Shown here in pieces: positions 3,463-37,362 of a stretch of 46,351 nt of DNA (positions are counted from its first letter, which is position 1; each line of letters begins with the position of its first letter). Position numbers and translations under genes: made by a program. Origin of the DNA: a virus; the IMG/VR virus record IMGVR_UViG_3300002180_000020, positions 1 through 46,351 of that record, one strand, 5' to 3'. The notes below the pieces were generated by a model, which saw only the letters and a list, made by a program, of their open reading frames with translations, was not told the DNA's origin and ran no database searches.

Positions 3463-3503
3463 TATACTAAATAGCGTATAGATGAAATCTAGTCGTATAT
3501 TTG
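3463..3503 (+). promoter_or_regulatory. Promoter of the recombination module with 18-bp element
   Basis: The element TATACTAAATAGCGTATA at 3463-3480 is followed after 15 bases by the -7 box TATATTTG at 3496-3503. The sequence from the box onward (TATATTTGTAGTGAGTTTAA) is repeated exactly in the leftward promoter at 37328-37309. Arms TATAC and GTATA form an interrupted palindrome, as expected for a dimeric regulator site. Confidence 0.75.
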
Positions 3504-31790: not shown

Positions 31791-32219
31791 TTAAAAGAAT
31801 ATTGTTTTCTTACCTGTTTGCAGCAATTTTTCAATATCTTCAATAAAATAAACACCTTTAGGCTCTCCATTTATTATAGACCAAAAACCGTCTAAAGATG
31901 TTACTATAAAGTAAAAACCTCCTTGTTTTGTTATTTTTTTACCCCATTCTAATTGCTTCTTTACGTGGTCTCTTTTATGTTTTTCTCCAGGATATTTTAC
32001 CTCAATCCCTGCTAATTGCCCATCTTTTAAGTAAAGCAAGTCAGAAACTCCTCTTTGTAGGCCCATAGCAAGCTGTTTCTGTCCGTCTCTTTGTGATAGA
32101 GTCCTGTTTAGAGTAGCCCATAATTGTCCTTTCTCGTTTGGCCTATTTTGACTAAAATCAAGAACCATTTTGCTTTGTAATTTTGCTTCTTTATTCATAC
32201 ACCAGTTTTTAAATTCCAA
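31791..32219 (-). CDS. VRR-NUC domain nuclease
   Basis: 142 residues. GVSDLLYLKDGQLAGIEVKYPG (57-78) holds the PD-(D/E)XK-type residues D60, E73 and K75, with a Q89 helix (KKQLEWGKKITKQGGFYFIV) behind it, as in stand-alone phage VRR-NUC nucleases. These cut branched or structured DNA, sometimes with a partner helicase. It overlaps the queE gene by 25 bases and closes the modification operon, suggesting a function linked to DNA modification or replication. ATG at 32219 or 32198 may be the start. Confidence 0.82.
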   Translation of the reverse strand: MEFKNWCMNKEAKLQSKMVLDFSQNRPNEKGQLWATLNRTLSQRDGQKQLAMGLQRGVSDLLYLKDGQLAGIEVKYPGEKHKRDHVKKQLEWGKKITKQGGFYFIVTSLDGFWSIINGEPKGVYFIEDIEKLLQTGKKTIFF

Positions 32220-32893
32220 ATAACAATATGTAATCTGTCTGAATACCTAACACACATATCAACAGATAATTGAGCTGCAATAGGTCTTGTAATTTCTAAC
32301 TCTGCTTGGTTTTCTCCTGCAGGCATAAATACAACATTTTTGAAATCTATAACCTTATCGAATTCATTAAATACTTCAAGAGCATCTTCTTTTTTAGATA
32401 TAACAAACTTAAATATGACGTTACCTTGTCTATTAAGTCTAAACAAAGAAAGTTCATTAAACCTCTTCTTTTTGCTCTCTCCGCTTGATTCTAACTTTGG
32501 GCTAACATTCCAATAATCAACCTTCTTTTCTAAATAAGGTTCTAGAGATATTGTTCCATTTGTTTCAATTTCAATAATTGGCTTAAAATTATGTTCAACC
32601 TCAAACCACTTTATATATCTTTCAATTGCTTTTCTATGCAACATAGGTTCACCACCAGTTATCACCAAGTGAGCTCCTTGATGAAGTTTTTCAATATAAT
32701 CAGGACAAATAACATCTTCAAAAGGTGTTTTGACTCCTTTTTTCCAAACTTTAATTGAGTCACAAATCCAACCCTCTCCTTTACAAAGTAAGTTGCAACC
32801 TGATAACCTTAAAAATACTGCAGGAATACCCATTGTTTGGCCTTCGCCTTGTATTGAATAAAATATTTCTGATACCGATAATTCTTTTTTCAT
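32195..32893 (-). CDS. queE: 7-carboxy-7-deazaguanine synthase (QueE), radical SAM
   Basis: 232 residues. QueE converts 6-carboxy-tetrahydropterin into 7-carboxy-7-deazaguanine (CDG) using a 4Fe-4S cluster and SAM. Seen are YSIQGEGQTMG (12-22), the cluster cysteines C33, C37 and C44 in GCNLLCKGEGWICDS, VITGGEP (77-83), EIETNG and a C-terminal RLHIVIWN. The usual QueE cluster motif is C-x3-C-x2-C; here it is C-x3-C-x6-C, four residues longer. The start follows an A-rich leader. Its partners FolE and QueD are upstream in the same operon. Confidence 0.92.
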   Translation of the reverse strand: MKKELSVSEIFYSIQGEGQTMGIPAVFLRLSGCNLLCKGEGWICDSIKVWKKGVKTPFEDVICPDYIEKLHQGAHLVITGGEPMLHRKAIERYIKWFEVEHNFKPIIEIETNGTISLEPYLEKKVDYWNVSPKLESSGESKKKRFNELSLFRLNRQGNVIFKFVISKKEDALEVFNEFDKVIDFKNVVFMPAGENQAELEITRPIAAQLSVDMCVRYSDRLHIVIWNLKTGV

Positions 32894-32905
32894 TTTTTTA
32901 TTTTT

Positions 32906-33397
32906 TTAAAATTCAAACATATCCATTTGATTACTCAAATCAACTTTTATTTTTTCTGCTTTTGTAACACTTGTCCAATCAAAAGTAAGTAAATCTTTGA
33001 AAAATTCAACAGTTACTAAAGGAATGCCTAGTTCATTGGCTATTGAGTTATTCGATAATTCTAAAGCTGATATTTTTTTAGCTATTTTGATTGAATTAGG
33101 TTTATTTAAAATGTTTTGGAATAATATACTTGCAGACTCTTTACTTATCCCTTTCAAGTCATGCAGTACTAAACACCTGATATCTACGTTGCCACATTTT
33201 TTAAAAGCGATAAATTCATTTATCATATTTAATATCAAATAATTATCATCATCAACTTTTAAAACTGTTGGTATAAAAATTTGGTTATTATTTGTAAAAA
33301 CTCTAGATAAAGATGTTGAATGCTTTAAGCAAATATCATTCAAGGAATCTTCCATCCCAATTATTTTTTTAACTTCTATTTTTTCCAAACTGTTCAT
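32906..33397 (-). CDS. ParB-like protein beside the transglycosylase (DpdB-like candidate)
   Basis: About 163 residues from ATG at 33397, which follows an A-rich leader; a longer frame to 33433 would overlap dpdA. The N-terminal part (IIGMEDSLNDICLKHSTSL ... FIPTVLKVDDDNYLILNMINEFIAFKKCGNVDIRCLVL) has the ParB/sulfiredoxin layout, but the usual GxxRxxA motif is replaced by NMINEFIAF, so it is degenerate. A HTH-like C-terminal half (ALELSNNSIANELGIPLVTVEFFKDLL) follows. Bacterial dpd islands pair DpdA with DpdB, a ParB-related protein. Equivalence here is inference. Confidence 0.6.
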   Translation of the reverse strand: MNSLEKIEVKKIIGMEDSLNDICLKHSTSLSRVFTNNNQIFIPTVLKVDDDNYLILNMINEFIAFKKCGNVDIRCLVLHDLKGISKESASILFQNILNKPNSIKIAKKISALELSNNSIANELGIPLVTVEFFKDLLTFDWTSVTKAEKIKVDLSNQMDMFEF

Positions 33398-33402
33398 ATT
33401 TT

Positions 33403-34281
33403 TTATTTTAATTGAAAACCTCTTTCTTTCCAAACTCCTGTTAAGAATTTAGCCATTTCAAGATATCCTCGTGCTGAATATTCTAATCTATAATTATTTT
33501 CTATTTTTTTATCCTCATTAAATAGCTTGTCAAATTCTAAGGTTGTAGCTATTTTAATCGCATCTTGATTTCTACATTCAAGCATCTTAACCTTGGAGTC
33601 TAAAAAGTGACCAATGAATCCATAAATAACACCAGCCTTCCAACTTGAACTATCAACAGACCAAAATCCATAATTTAAAAATACATCAGTTTTTGTCATT
33701 GCAAAGCCATGGGTTTTTACTCCTCTTTCGTGGGCCAACTTCAAGTATTTATTATAACTTATTCTAGGCCTGTTATCTCTATCTCCCTCTAAAGCTATAT
33801 ATCTACTCTCTGAATCATCAAGCATTTCAATATATTCTTCATCTGTCATAATTGCAGGATGGTAAACTGTGACACATTTATGGTAGACACCTGCATCTTT
33901 AAGCTGCTGCCTCCATAACATAACTTTTTCTTGACCAACAATTTCTCCAATATCTAACTCTGCATAATAATCCAAATCATCAATATGTTTTTTAATCCAA
34001 ATAAGATATTTTGCCATATATTCATCTGGAGTTTCTTTAGTTTTTGTTTTCTTTTTTAAGTTAGAAACAGAAAGTCCAGCGTCATGGTTTTCAGCAAAAA
34101 ATGAATGGGCTCCAGAATCAACAAATATCAATTCGTGGTGTTTTCTGTTTGCAATCATATTGGCTACCATTGGCTTTGACTTTCTCATATAGTAATAAGA
34201 ATAAAAAGCATTAGGTATCAAATCTTTTTGAACTATTGGAATACATTGATTCTGTTCAATTGCAGCTAAATATATCTTCAT
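33403..34281 (-). CDS. dpdA: DpdA-like DNA guanine transglycosylase
   Basis: 292 residues in the TGT/DpdA superfamily, which exchanges guanine for a 7-deazaguanine base. Visible TIM-barrel motifs are FVDSGAHSFF (D55, like DSGG in TGT), AELDIGEIVG (107-116), VYHP (H141), IALEGD (162-167), THGFAMT (190-196) and FWSVDSSSW (206-214, D210 candidate nucleophile). It lacks an RNA-binding PUA domain, so DNA is the likely substrate. It lies three bases after the glycosyltransferase gene and before queE. No QueC or QueF is encoded, so substrate identity (CDG, its decarboxylated form or host preQ0) is open. Confidence 0.85.
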   Translation of the reverse strand: MKIYLAAIEQNQCIPIVQKDLIPNAFYSYYYMRKSKPMVANMIANRKHHELIFVDSGAHSFFAENHDAGLSVSNLKKKTKTKETPDEYMAKYLIWIKKHIDDLDYYAELDIGEIVGQEKVMLWRQQLKDAGVYHKCVTVYHPAIMTDEEYIEMLDDSESRYIALEGDRDNRPRISYNKYLKLAHERGVKTHGFAMTKTDVFLNYGFWSVDSSSWKAGVIYGFIGHFLDSKVKMLECRNQDAIKIATTLEFDKLFNEDKKIENNYRLEYSARGYLEMAKFLTGVWKERGFQLK

Positions 34282-34284
34282 GGA

Positions 34285-35424
34285 TTAATCGTTTAAAAAG
34301 TTAAAATAAGATTCTTCATGCCAGATGTTGAATTCTTCAACCAAATCACTTAACATTATATGAGCTTCAACCCTCCTACCTAAATCGCTCTTTTTTACTA
34401 TGTGATGATGTGTTCTGGGCTCCTTAGTCACCTTGTTTAGTAGTAAGACAGCAGATTTGACATCAAACGCCTTATAGAGCCTGTCTGAATCAATTATCTC
34501 AGGAAACGACCTGAAGTTAGGATAAACTATATCACAACTAAACATCGTTGATTCTAGCAACGTCCAAGAAACGTAATCCTGTAAAGATGAATTAAATTGT
34601 ACTAAAGATTTTTGAAGCTCTAAATAATATTCTTCTTTTGTTAAGTTTGCTTTCAAAACTAATCTAGGATTAATTTCTGCAAGAGCTTTCATTTCATTAA
34701 CGAATCCAGGTATGCTGCTTTTGAAGTCATCACCAGAAGTGGTTATAACCCAAGTAAATTCTGGATTTCTATCTAAAAACCTAAGAGCGACATCAAGCAT
34801 AAAATAGGGATTTTTCTCCTTATCAAATCTACTTGTAAAAATTACCTGCCTCTCTTTTTTAACAACACCTTTGAAAGCTACTTTTTTAGCCAACTCTTGA
34901 TGTATTGGTAAACTCACAACGTGGATAGCAGCTTTGAATCCAGCGTTTCTTAATTGTTCTTTATGTATGGTTGACCCTACAAAAATACCGCTATGTCTTT
35001 TATCAATTCCTAATTCAAAATCTCTCATCCAATCTCTCATATGATAAGTGAAATCATATTCATCCACACTTTGGGCATGAAGCATTGAATACAATTTAAT
35101 TTTTATACCATATAAATCAAGCATATAAAAAACAGCTTCAATACCTGGAGTCCAGAAATCTTGTAAAAATACAATATCATTATTCTGAACTTTACCTGCT
35201 GCAATAGCTTTCATGAATTGTTGACATTGGCTCATAGAATAAACACCTCTACCGTAAGCATCTAAAACTGAACCAACACTTATTTTACCATCATCTTTTT
35301 CACCTCTAAGGTGTATGAAATTGACTGCTGCTTTTTTGAATGTGTCAGGCATCCATTCTTCACTTAGTTGGTAGGTGTACCTTTCTTTTAATGGCTCTAA
35401 GCCAAAATACCATAAATTTCTCAT
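34285..35424 (-). CDS. GT4-like glycosyltransferase within the modification operon
   Basis: 379 residues with two Rossmann-like halves (GT-B). The C-terminal half shows VIFTSRFDKEKNPYFMLDVA (about 194-213), typical of the donor domain, and 'SWTLLESTMFSCDIVYPNFRSFPEII' with E291 and E309, fitting the EX7E-type region of GT4 enzymes. There is no membrane segment or signal. It lies one base before the T-fold gene and three bases after its 5' partner, so it is co-expressed with deazaguanine synthesis. A role in adding a sugar to the modified base or DNA is an inference; alternatives are host surface or other targets. Confidence 0.78.
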   Translation of the reverse strand: MRNLWYFGLEPLKERYTYQLSEEWMPDTFKKAAVNFIHLRGEKDDGKISVGSVLDAYGRGVYSMSQCQQFMKAIAAGKVQNNDIVFLQDFWTPGIEAVFYMLDLYGIKIKLYSMLHAQSVDEYDFTYHMRDWMRDFELGIDKRHSGIFVGSTIHKEQLRNAGFKAAIHVVSLPIHQELAKKVAFKGVVKKERQVIFTSRFDKEKNPYFMLDVALRFLDRNPEFTWVITTSGDDFKSSIPGFVNEMKALAEINPRLVLKANLTKEEYYLELQKSLVQFNSSLQDYVSWTLLESTMFSCDIVYPNFRSFPEIIDSDRLYKAFDVKSAVLLLNKVTKEPRTHHHIVKKSDLGRRVEAHIMLSDLVEEFNIWHEESYFNFLND

Positions 35425-35425
35425 C

Positions 35426-35776
35426 TTATATGTTTTTTTTGTTAATTATTACTTCTGCTCCATTTTCATTATCCTCTAGGACGCTGCAATAGTTTAAACC
35501 AAATAAATCTGCAAGTGATTCAGCTATCATTTCACAGCTTTTAGAACCAAAATTACCTTTATATTCAATATCTAAATGTTTTTCAATTTCTCTTTTTAAC
35601 ATTATTATTTCAACATCTCTATCAGAATGAGAAACTTCTTTTTTGCATTTCATAAAGAAAATATGTCTATGCGGATGCCTTAAAAAATCCACTTCTTTAA
35701 ATGGACACTCTGGCCAATTGTGAACTGCTTCATATTGCAGCGTGACAACAATATTAGTCTTTTTTTCTATCATCAT
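35426..35776 (-). CDS. Second, divergent QueD-like T-fold protein
   Basis: 116 residues. The zinc-type pattern of QueD is recognisable but altered: H19 (YEAVHNWP), C24, then RHPHRH (H34, H36, H38) in place of LHGH, SKSCEMIAESLADLFG (78-93) in place of PTAENIA, and VLEDNENGAEV (E101) in place of the ET motif. The DH motif is absent. It overlaps queD by 23 bases. A separate enzyme step is likely, for example decarboxylation of CDG or a change to the pterin. It is a candidate for the predicted CDG decarboxylase DpdL; I cannot confirm the match. Confidence 0.65.
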   Translation of the reverse strand: MMIEKKTNIVVTLQYEAVHNWPECPFKEVDFLRHPHRHIFFMKCKKEVSHSDRDVEIIMLKREIEKHLDIEYKGNFGSKSCEMIAESLADLFGLNYCSVLEDNENGAEVIINKKNI

Positions 35777-36308
35777 AATTTCTTTTTCCTTTTAATTTTT
35801 TATAATCACTTAATTTTGTTTCGTTCTCTTTGAAAAAATTATGCTTTTCATCCCTTGTTATTGATGTGACATCACAATCAACATAACAATTTGGCGTCTC
35901 CCAAAGCCTTATATTTTGACATCTTAATCCAACTTTATAATCGTGAACTAAACTGTCAGCAATAAGGAAGATTTCTTTAGCAATGTTTTCCGCTGTTGGG
36001 TTGCAATAGTTACCTTGGTTTAAACTCATTACCCATAACTTAGATTTCTCTTCTATACAGGCCTTAATATATGTTGAGTCGTGTGGGTTAGCTATAAATC
36101 CGTGGTCTAAATAATCATCTACAAATTGACCAAACAATCTTTTTATCTCTTTGAAATCTACTGCATAACCTATAGATTCTATTGTATCAAATTGCCAAGT
36201 TGCCTCTATTTTGTAAGTATGACCATGTAAATTAAAACATTTAAAGCATTCATTCATCACTCTGTGTCCGCTGTCAAAAGTGAATATTCTAGTTACAGTT
36301 TGTGGCAT
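35754..36308 (-). CDS. queD: 6-carboxy-tetrahydropterin synthase (QueD)
   Basis: 184 residues. It converts 7,8-dihydroneopterin triphosphate into 6-carboxy-tetrahydropterin. Zinc ligands H15, H28 and H30 (LHGHTY), catalytic C24 (ECFKCFNLHGH), YAVDFKEIK (48-56), LDHGF (D68-H69), PTAENIA (104-110) and WETPNC (E137) are all present. It is longer than usual QueD (about 120): an insertion near 73-100 and a lysine-rich tail after 150 add length. It starts two bases after folE. Confidence 0.93.
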   Translation of the reverse strand: MPQTVTRIFTFDSGHRVMNECFKCFNLHGHTYKIEATWQFDTIESIGYAVDFKEIKRLFGQFVDDYLDHGFIANPHDSTYIKACIEEKSKLWVMSLNQGNYCNPTAENIAKEIFLIADSLVHDYKVGLRCQNIRLWETPNCYVDCDVTSITRDEKHNFFKENETKLSDYKKLKGKRNYDDRKKD

Positions 36309-36310
36309 AG

Positions 36311-36952
36311 TTATAGGTTTAAAAATTCATTTCTAACCGTAGCATCTTTGAAAACACCACCGAGCTTTGAAGTGGTTGTATCACTGTTGGTGTCTGTTAC
36401 ACCTCTAGATTTCACACAATAATGAGTGGCTTTGATTTGTACTGCAATATCATTCGTATCTAAGATAAAAGATAAGGCATGAAAGATTTGTTCTGTGAGC
36501 CTCTCTTGTATTTGGGGTCTCTTACTAAAGAACTCTACAACTCTGTTAATTTTAGATAACCCAAGAACTTTTTCTTTTGGAATATAAGCTACTTTGGCAA
36601 AACCATCAATAATTACAAAATGGTGCTCACAGTTTGATTGAACATTGATTTTATCTACACAAACCATTTCGTCATACTTCATTTTATTTTCAACCGTAGT
36701 ACATTTTGGGAAGTTTGAATACTGCAAACCATTGAAGATTTCGTAGACATACATTTTAGCAACTCTTTCAGGCGTATCCCTAAGGCTGTCATCATTCATA
36801 TCTAAACCTAAAGCCTCCATTATTTCTCTGAACTTTCGCTCAATAATTACAGGGCTATCCATGTGAAGTCCTGTTTTGTTCATTGGAGTTTCTACTCCAA
36901 CTTTTAACAAGTGTTCATTAACTTGTTTTCCTAAGTGTTTGTCAGTTTTCAT
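36311..36952 (-). CDS. folE: GTP cyclohydrolase I (FolE)
   Basis: 213 residues. It converts GTP to dihydroneopterin triphosphate, the first step of both folate and 7-deazaguanine synthesis. Key motifs: [10 protein letters not shown] (59-68), [12 protein letters not shown] (C108, H111 zinc ligands), [17 protein letters not shown] (123-139), RPQIQERLT (145-153), [11 protein letters not shown] (C179) and a C-terminal [12 protein letters not shown]. Full-length. Together with QueD and QueE it makes CDG. It overlaps the preceding gene (TAATG). Confidence 0.96.
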
Positions 36953-37278
36953 TATTTTATTTTTTTTAGTGGGTTATCAAAACTACCATTCCAAATTGAT
37001 AAGTCTAAGTAATAGTAGGTATTTTCTTCAGTTTCTTTATCTTCAAACATAAATATGATGTCATCTGCCTCATTCAAATAAAAGCATTTTATAATACCAT
37101 ATTCATCATCATAACTATCTAAATCATCAGTCCAAAGTTTATCATTAGACATAGCTGTATCAATAACAGGCATTTCTAAACAAAATAATTGGTTAAGAAC
37201 TTTTGTTGCCTCATGCTGAACACCTATTATCTCATATCTGTTCATTGATTTTTGTTTTGTTTGGTCAAATGTACTCAT
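36952..37278 (-). CDS. First gene of the deazaguanine operon, hypothetical
   Basis: 108 residues, acidic (many Asp/Glu), alpha/beta pattern, with no recognised domain ([36 protein letters not shown]). It follows the promoter at 37321-37362 and overlaps folE by one base, so it is made with the modification enzymes. It may be a regulator or an accessory; nothing in the sequence shows which. Confidence 0.75.
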
Positions 37279-37320: not shown

Positions 37321-37362
37321 CAAATATAGAACTTTATTTTACATTATACGGTATTTAGTATA
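37321..37362 (-). promoter_or_regulatory. Promoter of the deazaguanine operon with 18-bp element
   Basis: On the minus strand the -7 box TATATTTG is at 37328-37321 and the element TATACTAAATACCGTATA at 37362-37345, 16 bases upstream. It differs from the 3463-3480 element by one base, and the following TAGTGAGTTTAACAATTAA is also shared with 3504-3522. The same regulator should control both operons. Confidence 0.78.

Follow-up and report, generated by a model that had tools for sequence, protein, structure and literature searches.

The window analysed here is the entire IMG/VR record IMGVR_UViG_3300002180_000020, a viral DNA of 46,351 bases that is classed as linear and may be incomplete. Nine genes on its minus strand, running leftward from position 37278 down to 31791 with intergenic spacing of -23 to +12 bases, encode, in this order, a 108-residue protein (p108), FolE, QueD, the QueD-fold paralogue Tf116, a glycosyltransferase-type protein (GT), a DpdA-like transglycosylase, p163, QueE, and a nuclease-like protein (Table 1). 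A preliminary description of this DNA named four of the nine genes, FolE, QueD, QueE, and the DpdA-like gene, and placed them in one leftward operon, as the spacing bears out; the five genes that it left unnamed include GT and the second QueD-fold protein. In our opinion, the end product of the operon is probably a glycosylated 7-deazaguanine in DNA: Tf116 would modify 7-carboxy-7-deazaguanine (CDG) or pass it on, DpdA would place it in DNA, and GT would add a sugar.

Table 1. Operon genes and candidate promoter, with positions in the window and the matches on which each assignment is based
Feature	Position	Strand	Basis
Candidate promoter -7 box TATATTTG	37321..37328	-	42 bases ahead of first ATG
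p108, first operon gene, 108 aa	36952..37278	-	no family
FolE, GTP cyclohydrolase I	36311..36952	-	PF01227 7.7e-62; NF006824 1.5e-95
QueD, 6-carboxytetrahydropterin synthase	35754..36308	-	Pfam PTPS 3e-29
Tf116, QueD-fold (T-fold) paralogue, 116 aa	35426..35776	-	phrog_17812 (function unknown) 2.6e-21
GT, GT4-type (GT-B fold) glycosyltransferase, 379 aa	34285..35424	-	predicted structure, motifs, weak Pfam match
DpdA-like DNA guanine transglycosylase	33403..34281	-	phrog_887 "queuine tRNA-ribosyltransferase" 6.1e-25
p163	32906..33397	-	27% to L006:8919-9410 (8e-7), itself phrog_16545 ParB-like (2.5e-7)
QueE, 7-carboxy-7-deazaguanine synthase	32195..32893	-	phrog_2076 1.3e-54; 54% to phi47:1 QueE
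Nuclease/resolvase-like protein, operon end	31791..32198	-	phrog_93 endonuclease 2e-9; phrog_5702 4.9e-5

Synthesis of the base and its predicted exchange into DNA

The precursor enzymes that DpdA-based systems require, FolE, QueD, and QueE, are all recognised in the window by family searches, and conversion of GTP to CDG is established for these families. It should be noted that QueD scores 71.4 bits against NCBIfam TIGR03367, under the equivalog cut-off of 89.25, and passes the Pfam cut-off; it carries H15, C24, H28, H30, D68, and H69. Among 76 QueD-like open reading frames (ORFs) of the compared loci, HGY replaces HGH in 51 and the first Zn-histidine position is occupied by another residue in 46; the window QueD keeps both the HGH and the histidine. 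The cysteine motif of the window QueE is C-x3-C-x6-C, the usual QueE motif being C-x3-C-x2-C.

Profile searches agree with the preliminary description that no QueC, QueF, or amidotransferase gene is seen. QueC, on which a preQ0/archaeosine branch depends, had no match in the window record, with 12 of 14 control genomes positive, a result to be read in the light of a possibly incomplete record and a possible host QueC. GATase_2 had no match in the record either, and QueF had none over the cut-off, its lone sub-cut-off match (18.7 bits) lying within FolE.

In Mycobacterium phage Bipper, a protein annotated as queuine tRNA-ribosyltransferase is 27% identical to the transglycosylase (9e-6). Motifs D55-S-G and D210-S are invariant in 9/9 DpdA-like proteins, and D55, G57, D210, and S211 are present in 33/33. 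We take D55 and D210 to be the catalytic aspartates of the TGT superfamily. Together with the phrog_887 match, they give the window the TGT-superfamily transglycosylase with two aspartates that characterises DpdA systems; this identity is based on one PHROG family, BLAST, and motifs, structures having been predicted for GT and Tf116. According to the accessible text of Hutinet et al. (PMC6884629), Bipper is grouped with the DpdA phages, QueC being its sole missing gene, and the DpdA of phage 9g was demonstrated to insert its base into DNA. The proposal that the operon serves 7-deazaguanine modification of DNA by base exchange is thus well supported by gene content.

The operon of Cellulophaga phage phi47:1 (KC821634) resembles that of the window in several respects: FolE and QueE are each 54% identical to their window counterparts and the helicase 41%, other genes are related, and DpdA is followed by a ParB-like gene. 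It differs in having QueC, QueF, and a 217-aa cysteine-rich gene, in having no GT (whole-record search), and in giving no Tf116 match, since phi47:1 lies outside the 26 records matched at E<=0.01. Because the two share these genes, but one has QueC and QueF where the other has Tf116 and GT, the two operons appear to be of one kind and to differ in their tailoring branch, as far as sequence comparison can tell. The DpdA phage systems covered in the accessible text of Hutinet et al. 2019 (PMC6884629) likewise have FolE, QueD, QueE, and a DpdA-type protein, the base being built and then exchanged into DNA; relative to the systems described there, the window has no QueC or amidotransferase match, and it adds Tf116 and a GT4-type GT.

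Tf116, GT, and their association with DpdA

Tf116 has no Pfam PTPS match at E<=1. Its predicted structure (predicted local distance difference test, pLDDT, 94.1) has the T-fold, the best fit being E. coli QueD (4ntk; Z 12.3, root-mean-square deviation (rmsd) 2.2, 106 residues). By profile, Tf116 matches QueD at 72.8% across 39 columns only; for this reason, the kinship is carried by the fold result. A histidine triad is conserved among 156 relatives (H19 and H36 in all, H38 in 155) and, by analogy with QueD, may form a Zn-type site. With respect to the catalytic cysteine of QueD, the window Tf116 has a single cysteine, C24, in the stretch from H19 to H36, and this position is alanine in 115 of the 156, while C81 is invariant (156/156) and lies in an SCE motif that matches the T-A-E of QueD by alignment. 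Since the Zn histidines are kept, C24 is mostly alanine, and C81 is invariant elsewhere in the protein, Tf116 is probably a QueD-fold protein with a metal site and with another reaction or a carrier role. In Chryseobacterium phage MA9V-3 (L036:8464-9348), Tf116 forms the C-terminal part of a 294-aa frame, the N-terminal part of which appears HNH-like by eye.

GT begins 1 base past Tf116 and ends 3 bases short of DpdA. Its predicted structure (pLDDT 86.5, from 28 sequences) fits GT-B/GT4 enzymes over nearly the full length, with BshA (3mbo) at Z 24.2, rmsd 3.6, and 322 residues, and with PimA, MshA, SenB, and further enzymes no more than about 3 Z units away from BshA. GT4 enzymes follow a motif rule of E-x7-E plus a donor-binding arginine and lysine. 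Residue conservation was counted over the 138 ORFs of >=340 aa out of 158 matches, not deduplicated and including the window copy: R199, K204, and E291 are present in 138/138 and E309 in 135/138, and position 283 is aspartate in 115, as in the window, and glutamate in 23. We take R199, K204, position 283, and E291 to be the GT4 donor-site and E-x7-E positions. Thus, GT has both the GT-B fold, by its fit to 3mbo, and the E-x7-E and R/K positions of GT4 enzymes. The gene run that holds GT in Synechococcus phage BUCT-ZZ01 includes another glycosyltransferase-like gene (PF13692 at 3.4e-5, under the cut-off).

The association of these genes was followed through 195 loci, which came from IMG/VR scans with GT and Tf116 queries (the best 80 of each retained), from named phage records, and from the window's own locus. 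They form 157 groups by shared DNA, with related viruses still counted apart. The loci were not selected for DpdA, and DpdA-like genes were called by five seed profiles. Among the 114 IMG/VR groups with GT, many of whose loci are short, a DpdA-like gene was found in 109, Tf116 in 89, QueE in 51, FolE in 45, QueD in 40, and QueC in 0; the Tf116 share is inflated because some loci came from the Tf116 query. Where GT has >=3 kb on each side, the DpdA-like gene was found in 43/45 groups, and where it has >=5 kb on each side (17 groups), in all 17, together with QueE and Tf116 in 14 each and FolE and QueD in 12 each. Five GT groups have no nearby DpdA: in two of them a DpdA-like match lies in another part of the record, and in three, where GT stands at a contig end, a search with profile A6 only gave no DpdA-like match. 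These profiles also served as an internal control, matching only 2 of 30 Tf116 groups without GT. On the evidence of these loci, we reject chance as the reason for GT lying next to DpdA. GT accompanies at least two divergent DpdA groups.

Similar arrangements are seen in isolates and in genome assemblies. GT adjoins the DpdA-like gene, or is one gene apart from it, in Synechococcus phage BUCT-ZZ01, Xanthomonas phage X1, Acidovorax phage ACP17, and Pseudomonas phage Paride, and it lies away from the DpdA-like gene in Sinorhizobium phage Phosso. A 316-aa gene beside QueE in Phosso was considered as DpdA and rejected, having no such motif. On GTDB genome contigs, 15 of 18 GT loci have a DpdA-like gene, the other three being on contigs of <4.7 kb; the 18 include two loci from one genome (L206 and L208), two from one metagenome-assembled genome (L197 and L198), and five from Magnetospirillum, and several resemble phage contigs in metagenome-assembled genomes. 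The DpdA ORF of L203 is on the opposite strand. The Magnetospirillum contigs (L206, L208, L210, L211, and L212) have GT, Tf116, DpdA, and QueD matches together. The GT family occurs in at least 550 viral sequence stretches.

QueC and QueF were over the cut-off in 0/20 GT-bearing whole records each, the positive control phi47:1 being found; these records were hand-chosen (5 isolates and 15 longer contigs, many of them fragments). Sub-cut-off scores were 16.2 bits for QueC in Xanthomonas phage X1 and 15.8 bits for QueF in one contig. Among 120 locus representatives, the window's own included, 22 have a nucleotidylyltransferase-like gene (PF01467 at 7e-11 in the one member checked) and 29 a phosphoribosyltransferase-like gene (PF00156 at 9e-24 in the one member checked) no farther than 9 kb from GT; by Pfam, neither is in the window operon. 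The former may provide local donor supply and the latter salvage of the guanine released by exchange. A protein of about 145 aa and of unknown family (L090:1844-2281 and relatives) is encoded near GT in 74 of the 120.

Promoter and remaining genes of the operon

That the operon is under one promoter, as previously suggested, is plausible. A single TATATTTG, presumably a -7 box of the Bacteroidota type, precedes the first ATG, and no further copy is found on the minus strand within the operon; the general pattern TANNTTTG is only slightly above chance (99 in the window vs 78 +/- 8 expected). TATATTTG repeats just ahead of several genes on both strands of the window, e.g., at 3496, 11805, 18726, and 40495, which suggests, from the letters of the DNA, a shared promoter type.

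Three operon genes stand apart from those discussed above. The first product, p108, has no match in Pfam, PHROG, or NCBIfam and no relative among 43 loci compared. There is no direct family match for p163 in the same three databases, but it is possibly ParB-like through its relative, and it lies directly downstream of DpdA, in the same place as the ParB-like gene of phi47:1. Both p163 and the last gene of the operon have ATG start codons. The nuclease/resolvase-like gene is probably outside the pathway; its phi47:1 relative (27.7%, L044:16674-17102) is distant from the que genes. Neither p108 nor the nuclease-like gene is included in the mechanism proposed here.

The end product and its alternatives

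In the proposed mechanism, Tf116 with its Zn-type site would act on, or hand over, the CDG-branch base; DpdA, judging from its family and conserved aspartates, would swap guanine in DNA for that base; and GT would use a nucleotide-sugar donor to glycosylate the base, most likely once it is in DNA. Candidate positions for the sugar are the 7-carboxylate, a hydroxyl made by Tf116, and C7 itself after decarboxylation. We infer glycosylation from the GT fold, the intact motifs, and the genetic linkage. The preliminary description held that the pathway stops at CDG, which is valid only if no further tailoring gene is present. The operon holds two candidates, Tf116 and the GT4-type GT, which recur with DpdA-like genes in many viruses, and given these the claim is probably wrong, although the accompanying hedge, "CDG or a derivative", can be kept. 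A restriction of the product to carboxy- and unsubstituted 7-deazaguanine finds no support.

Several points weigh against a glycosylated base. Since CDG offers a carboxylate but no hydroxyl, an O-glycoside could form only through an ester or after another alteration of the base. Should Tf116 be the CDG decarboxylase reportedly called DpdL, the acceptor would be 7-deazaguanine, a poor one for O-glycosylation, and one would have to think of a C-glycoside. The fold leaves the acceptor of GT unnamed because GT4 structures are nearly tied (Z 21-24 among the 50 matches listed), a tetrahydrobiopterin glucosyltransferase (5zes, Z 21.2) being one of them; moreover, the Pfam matches of GT to glycosyltransferase group 1 are weak, that to PF00534 (7.4e-4, 19.5 bits) being under the cut-off of 26.4. 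Neither Pfam nor NCBIfam gives a TGT match for the window transglycosylase, and the profile of its group (A5) fails to align with that of the longer DpdA group (A6), the probability being only 2.4%. The DpdA profiles, in addition, were built on the same loci, with no outside set. Profile A5 finds no solved structure at E<=10, and A6 matches queuine tRNA-ribosyltransferases at E 0.05 or worse only, one A6 member clearing Pfam TGT at 26.6 bits vs a cut-off of 26.3. Going by these profile comparisons, the A5 and A6 groups may be distant, or may be wrongly united under one name.

An unlikely alternative is that the DNA base is left unglycosylated, as CDG, or as 7-deazaguanine if Tf116 is DpdL, and that GT has another job. 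Cui et al. 2023 are said to have named dCDG and dDG as phage DNA bases and to have predicted DpdL; those phages reportedly share with the window a CDG branch without QueC, and Tf116 may be their DpdL, but the glycosyltransferase is the window's feature. Tf116 occurs without GT in 30 of 119 IMG/VR Tf116 groups and in 6 isolates; thus, this GT is not a constant part of such systems. Of these 30 groups, 24 have a gene like gp42 of Cellulophaga phage phiST, and 2 have a DpdA-like gene recognised by the other profiles; the gp42 type is also present in 5 of the 6 isolates (phiST being the seed itself). GT and the gp42-type gene never occur together in these loci, and GT was not found in the six isolates by whole-record search. 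The gp42 type may be a transglycosylase, which is a guess from position and from motifs viewed by eye in 12 members (a T/S-x-D-S-like or W-D-S motif in 11, the D-x-G-A pattern in 0). What speaks for glycosylation over this alternative is that GT is tied to DpdA-like genes (109/114 contig groups, 15/18 genome-contig loci), that it retains the GT4 residues, and that no surface-sugar gene was recognised by Pfam, PHROG, or NCBIfam among the nine operon proteins.

Less probable again is that the acceptor of GT is a small free molecule of the pathway, for instance a pterin or the base itself, glycosylated either ahead of insertion or as a by-product. The operon makes pterins, and the structures that GT resembles include tetrahydrobiopterin glucosyltransferases, 5zes and 9v0l (Z 21.3), but these tie with many other GT4 enzymes and carry no specific signal. 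Furthermore, loci of Sulfitobacter (L200), Shimia (L201), and Azospirillum (L203) have GT and a DpdA-like gene, and over their 11.9-16.9 kb Tf116, FolE, QueD, and QueE gave no match, so that genes for pterin synthesis need not be close by. Directly ahead of GT in the Shimia and Azospirillum loci, the two checked, is a Vut_1-type transporter, scoring 24.7 bits (below the cut-off of 27.2) and 31.9 bits, respectively. The pattern in these loci is that Tf116 accompanies de novo CDG genes and GT accompanies DpdA. Finally, modification of tRNA rather than DNA is scarcely credible: TGT is a relative of DpdA, and animal tRNA contains glycosylated queuosines (PMC11705514), but the window transglycosylase is related to that of Bipper, a DpdA-group phage, and the 9g DpdA acts on DNA (PMC6884629).

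A glycosylated 7-deazaguanine would set the operon apart from related systems. The accessible text of Iyer et al. 2021 (PMC7824862) recognises a deazaguanine synthesis and incorporation system in Pseudomonas phage PA5oct, with no glycosyltransferase tied to it there, and predicts further DNA modifications in relatives of PA5oct; Paride, its close relative, has GT, Tf116, DpdA, and QueE together. The T4 DNA alpha- and beta-glucosyltransferases also place a sugar on a modified phage-DNA base, but their acceptor is hydroxymethylcytosine; their absence from the 50 matches listed for the GT model is uninformative. We know of no glycosylated purine in DNA. GTDC1 is of the GT4 type, and its acceptor is the cyclopentenediol of queuosine. 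In animal tRNA, queuosines can be glycosylated, which the accessible text of PMC11705514 links to QTMAN (GTDC1) and QTGAL; such nucleosides, e.g., mannosyl-queuosine, resemble the proposed product in bearing a sugar on a 7-deazaguanine in nucleic acid, and differ in that this is tRNA, not DNA. The open-licence literature, taken without Cui et al. 2023 and the review of de Crecy-Lagard et al. 2024, yielded no report of glycosylated 7-deazaguanine in DNA.

More broadly, and by a narrow preference, we favour the view that the window represents a widespread class of viruses with a glycosylated purine in DNA, built from CDG-derived 7-deazaguanine, QueD-fold processing, several DpdA types, and a dedicated GT4-type family, and that related chromosomal GT-DpdA pairs are maybe fed by imported queuosine precursors. 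If this is true, sugar would join the known decorations of 7-deazaguanine in DNA, as a DNA counterpart of the glycosylated queuosines of animal tRNA, and a glycosyltransferase family would be named in the viral stretches counted above. The cultured phages Paride, ACP17, BUCT-ZZ01, X1, and Phosso would allow direct testing. Such a base would also change the resistance expected of these phages to restriction, Cas, and DNA-glycosylase defences.

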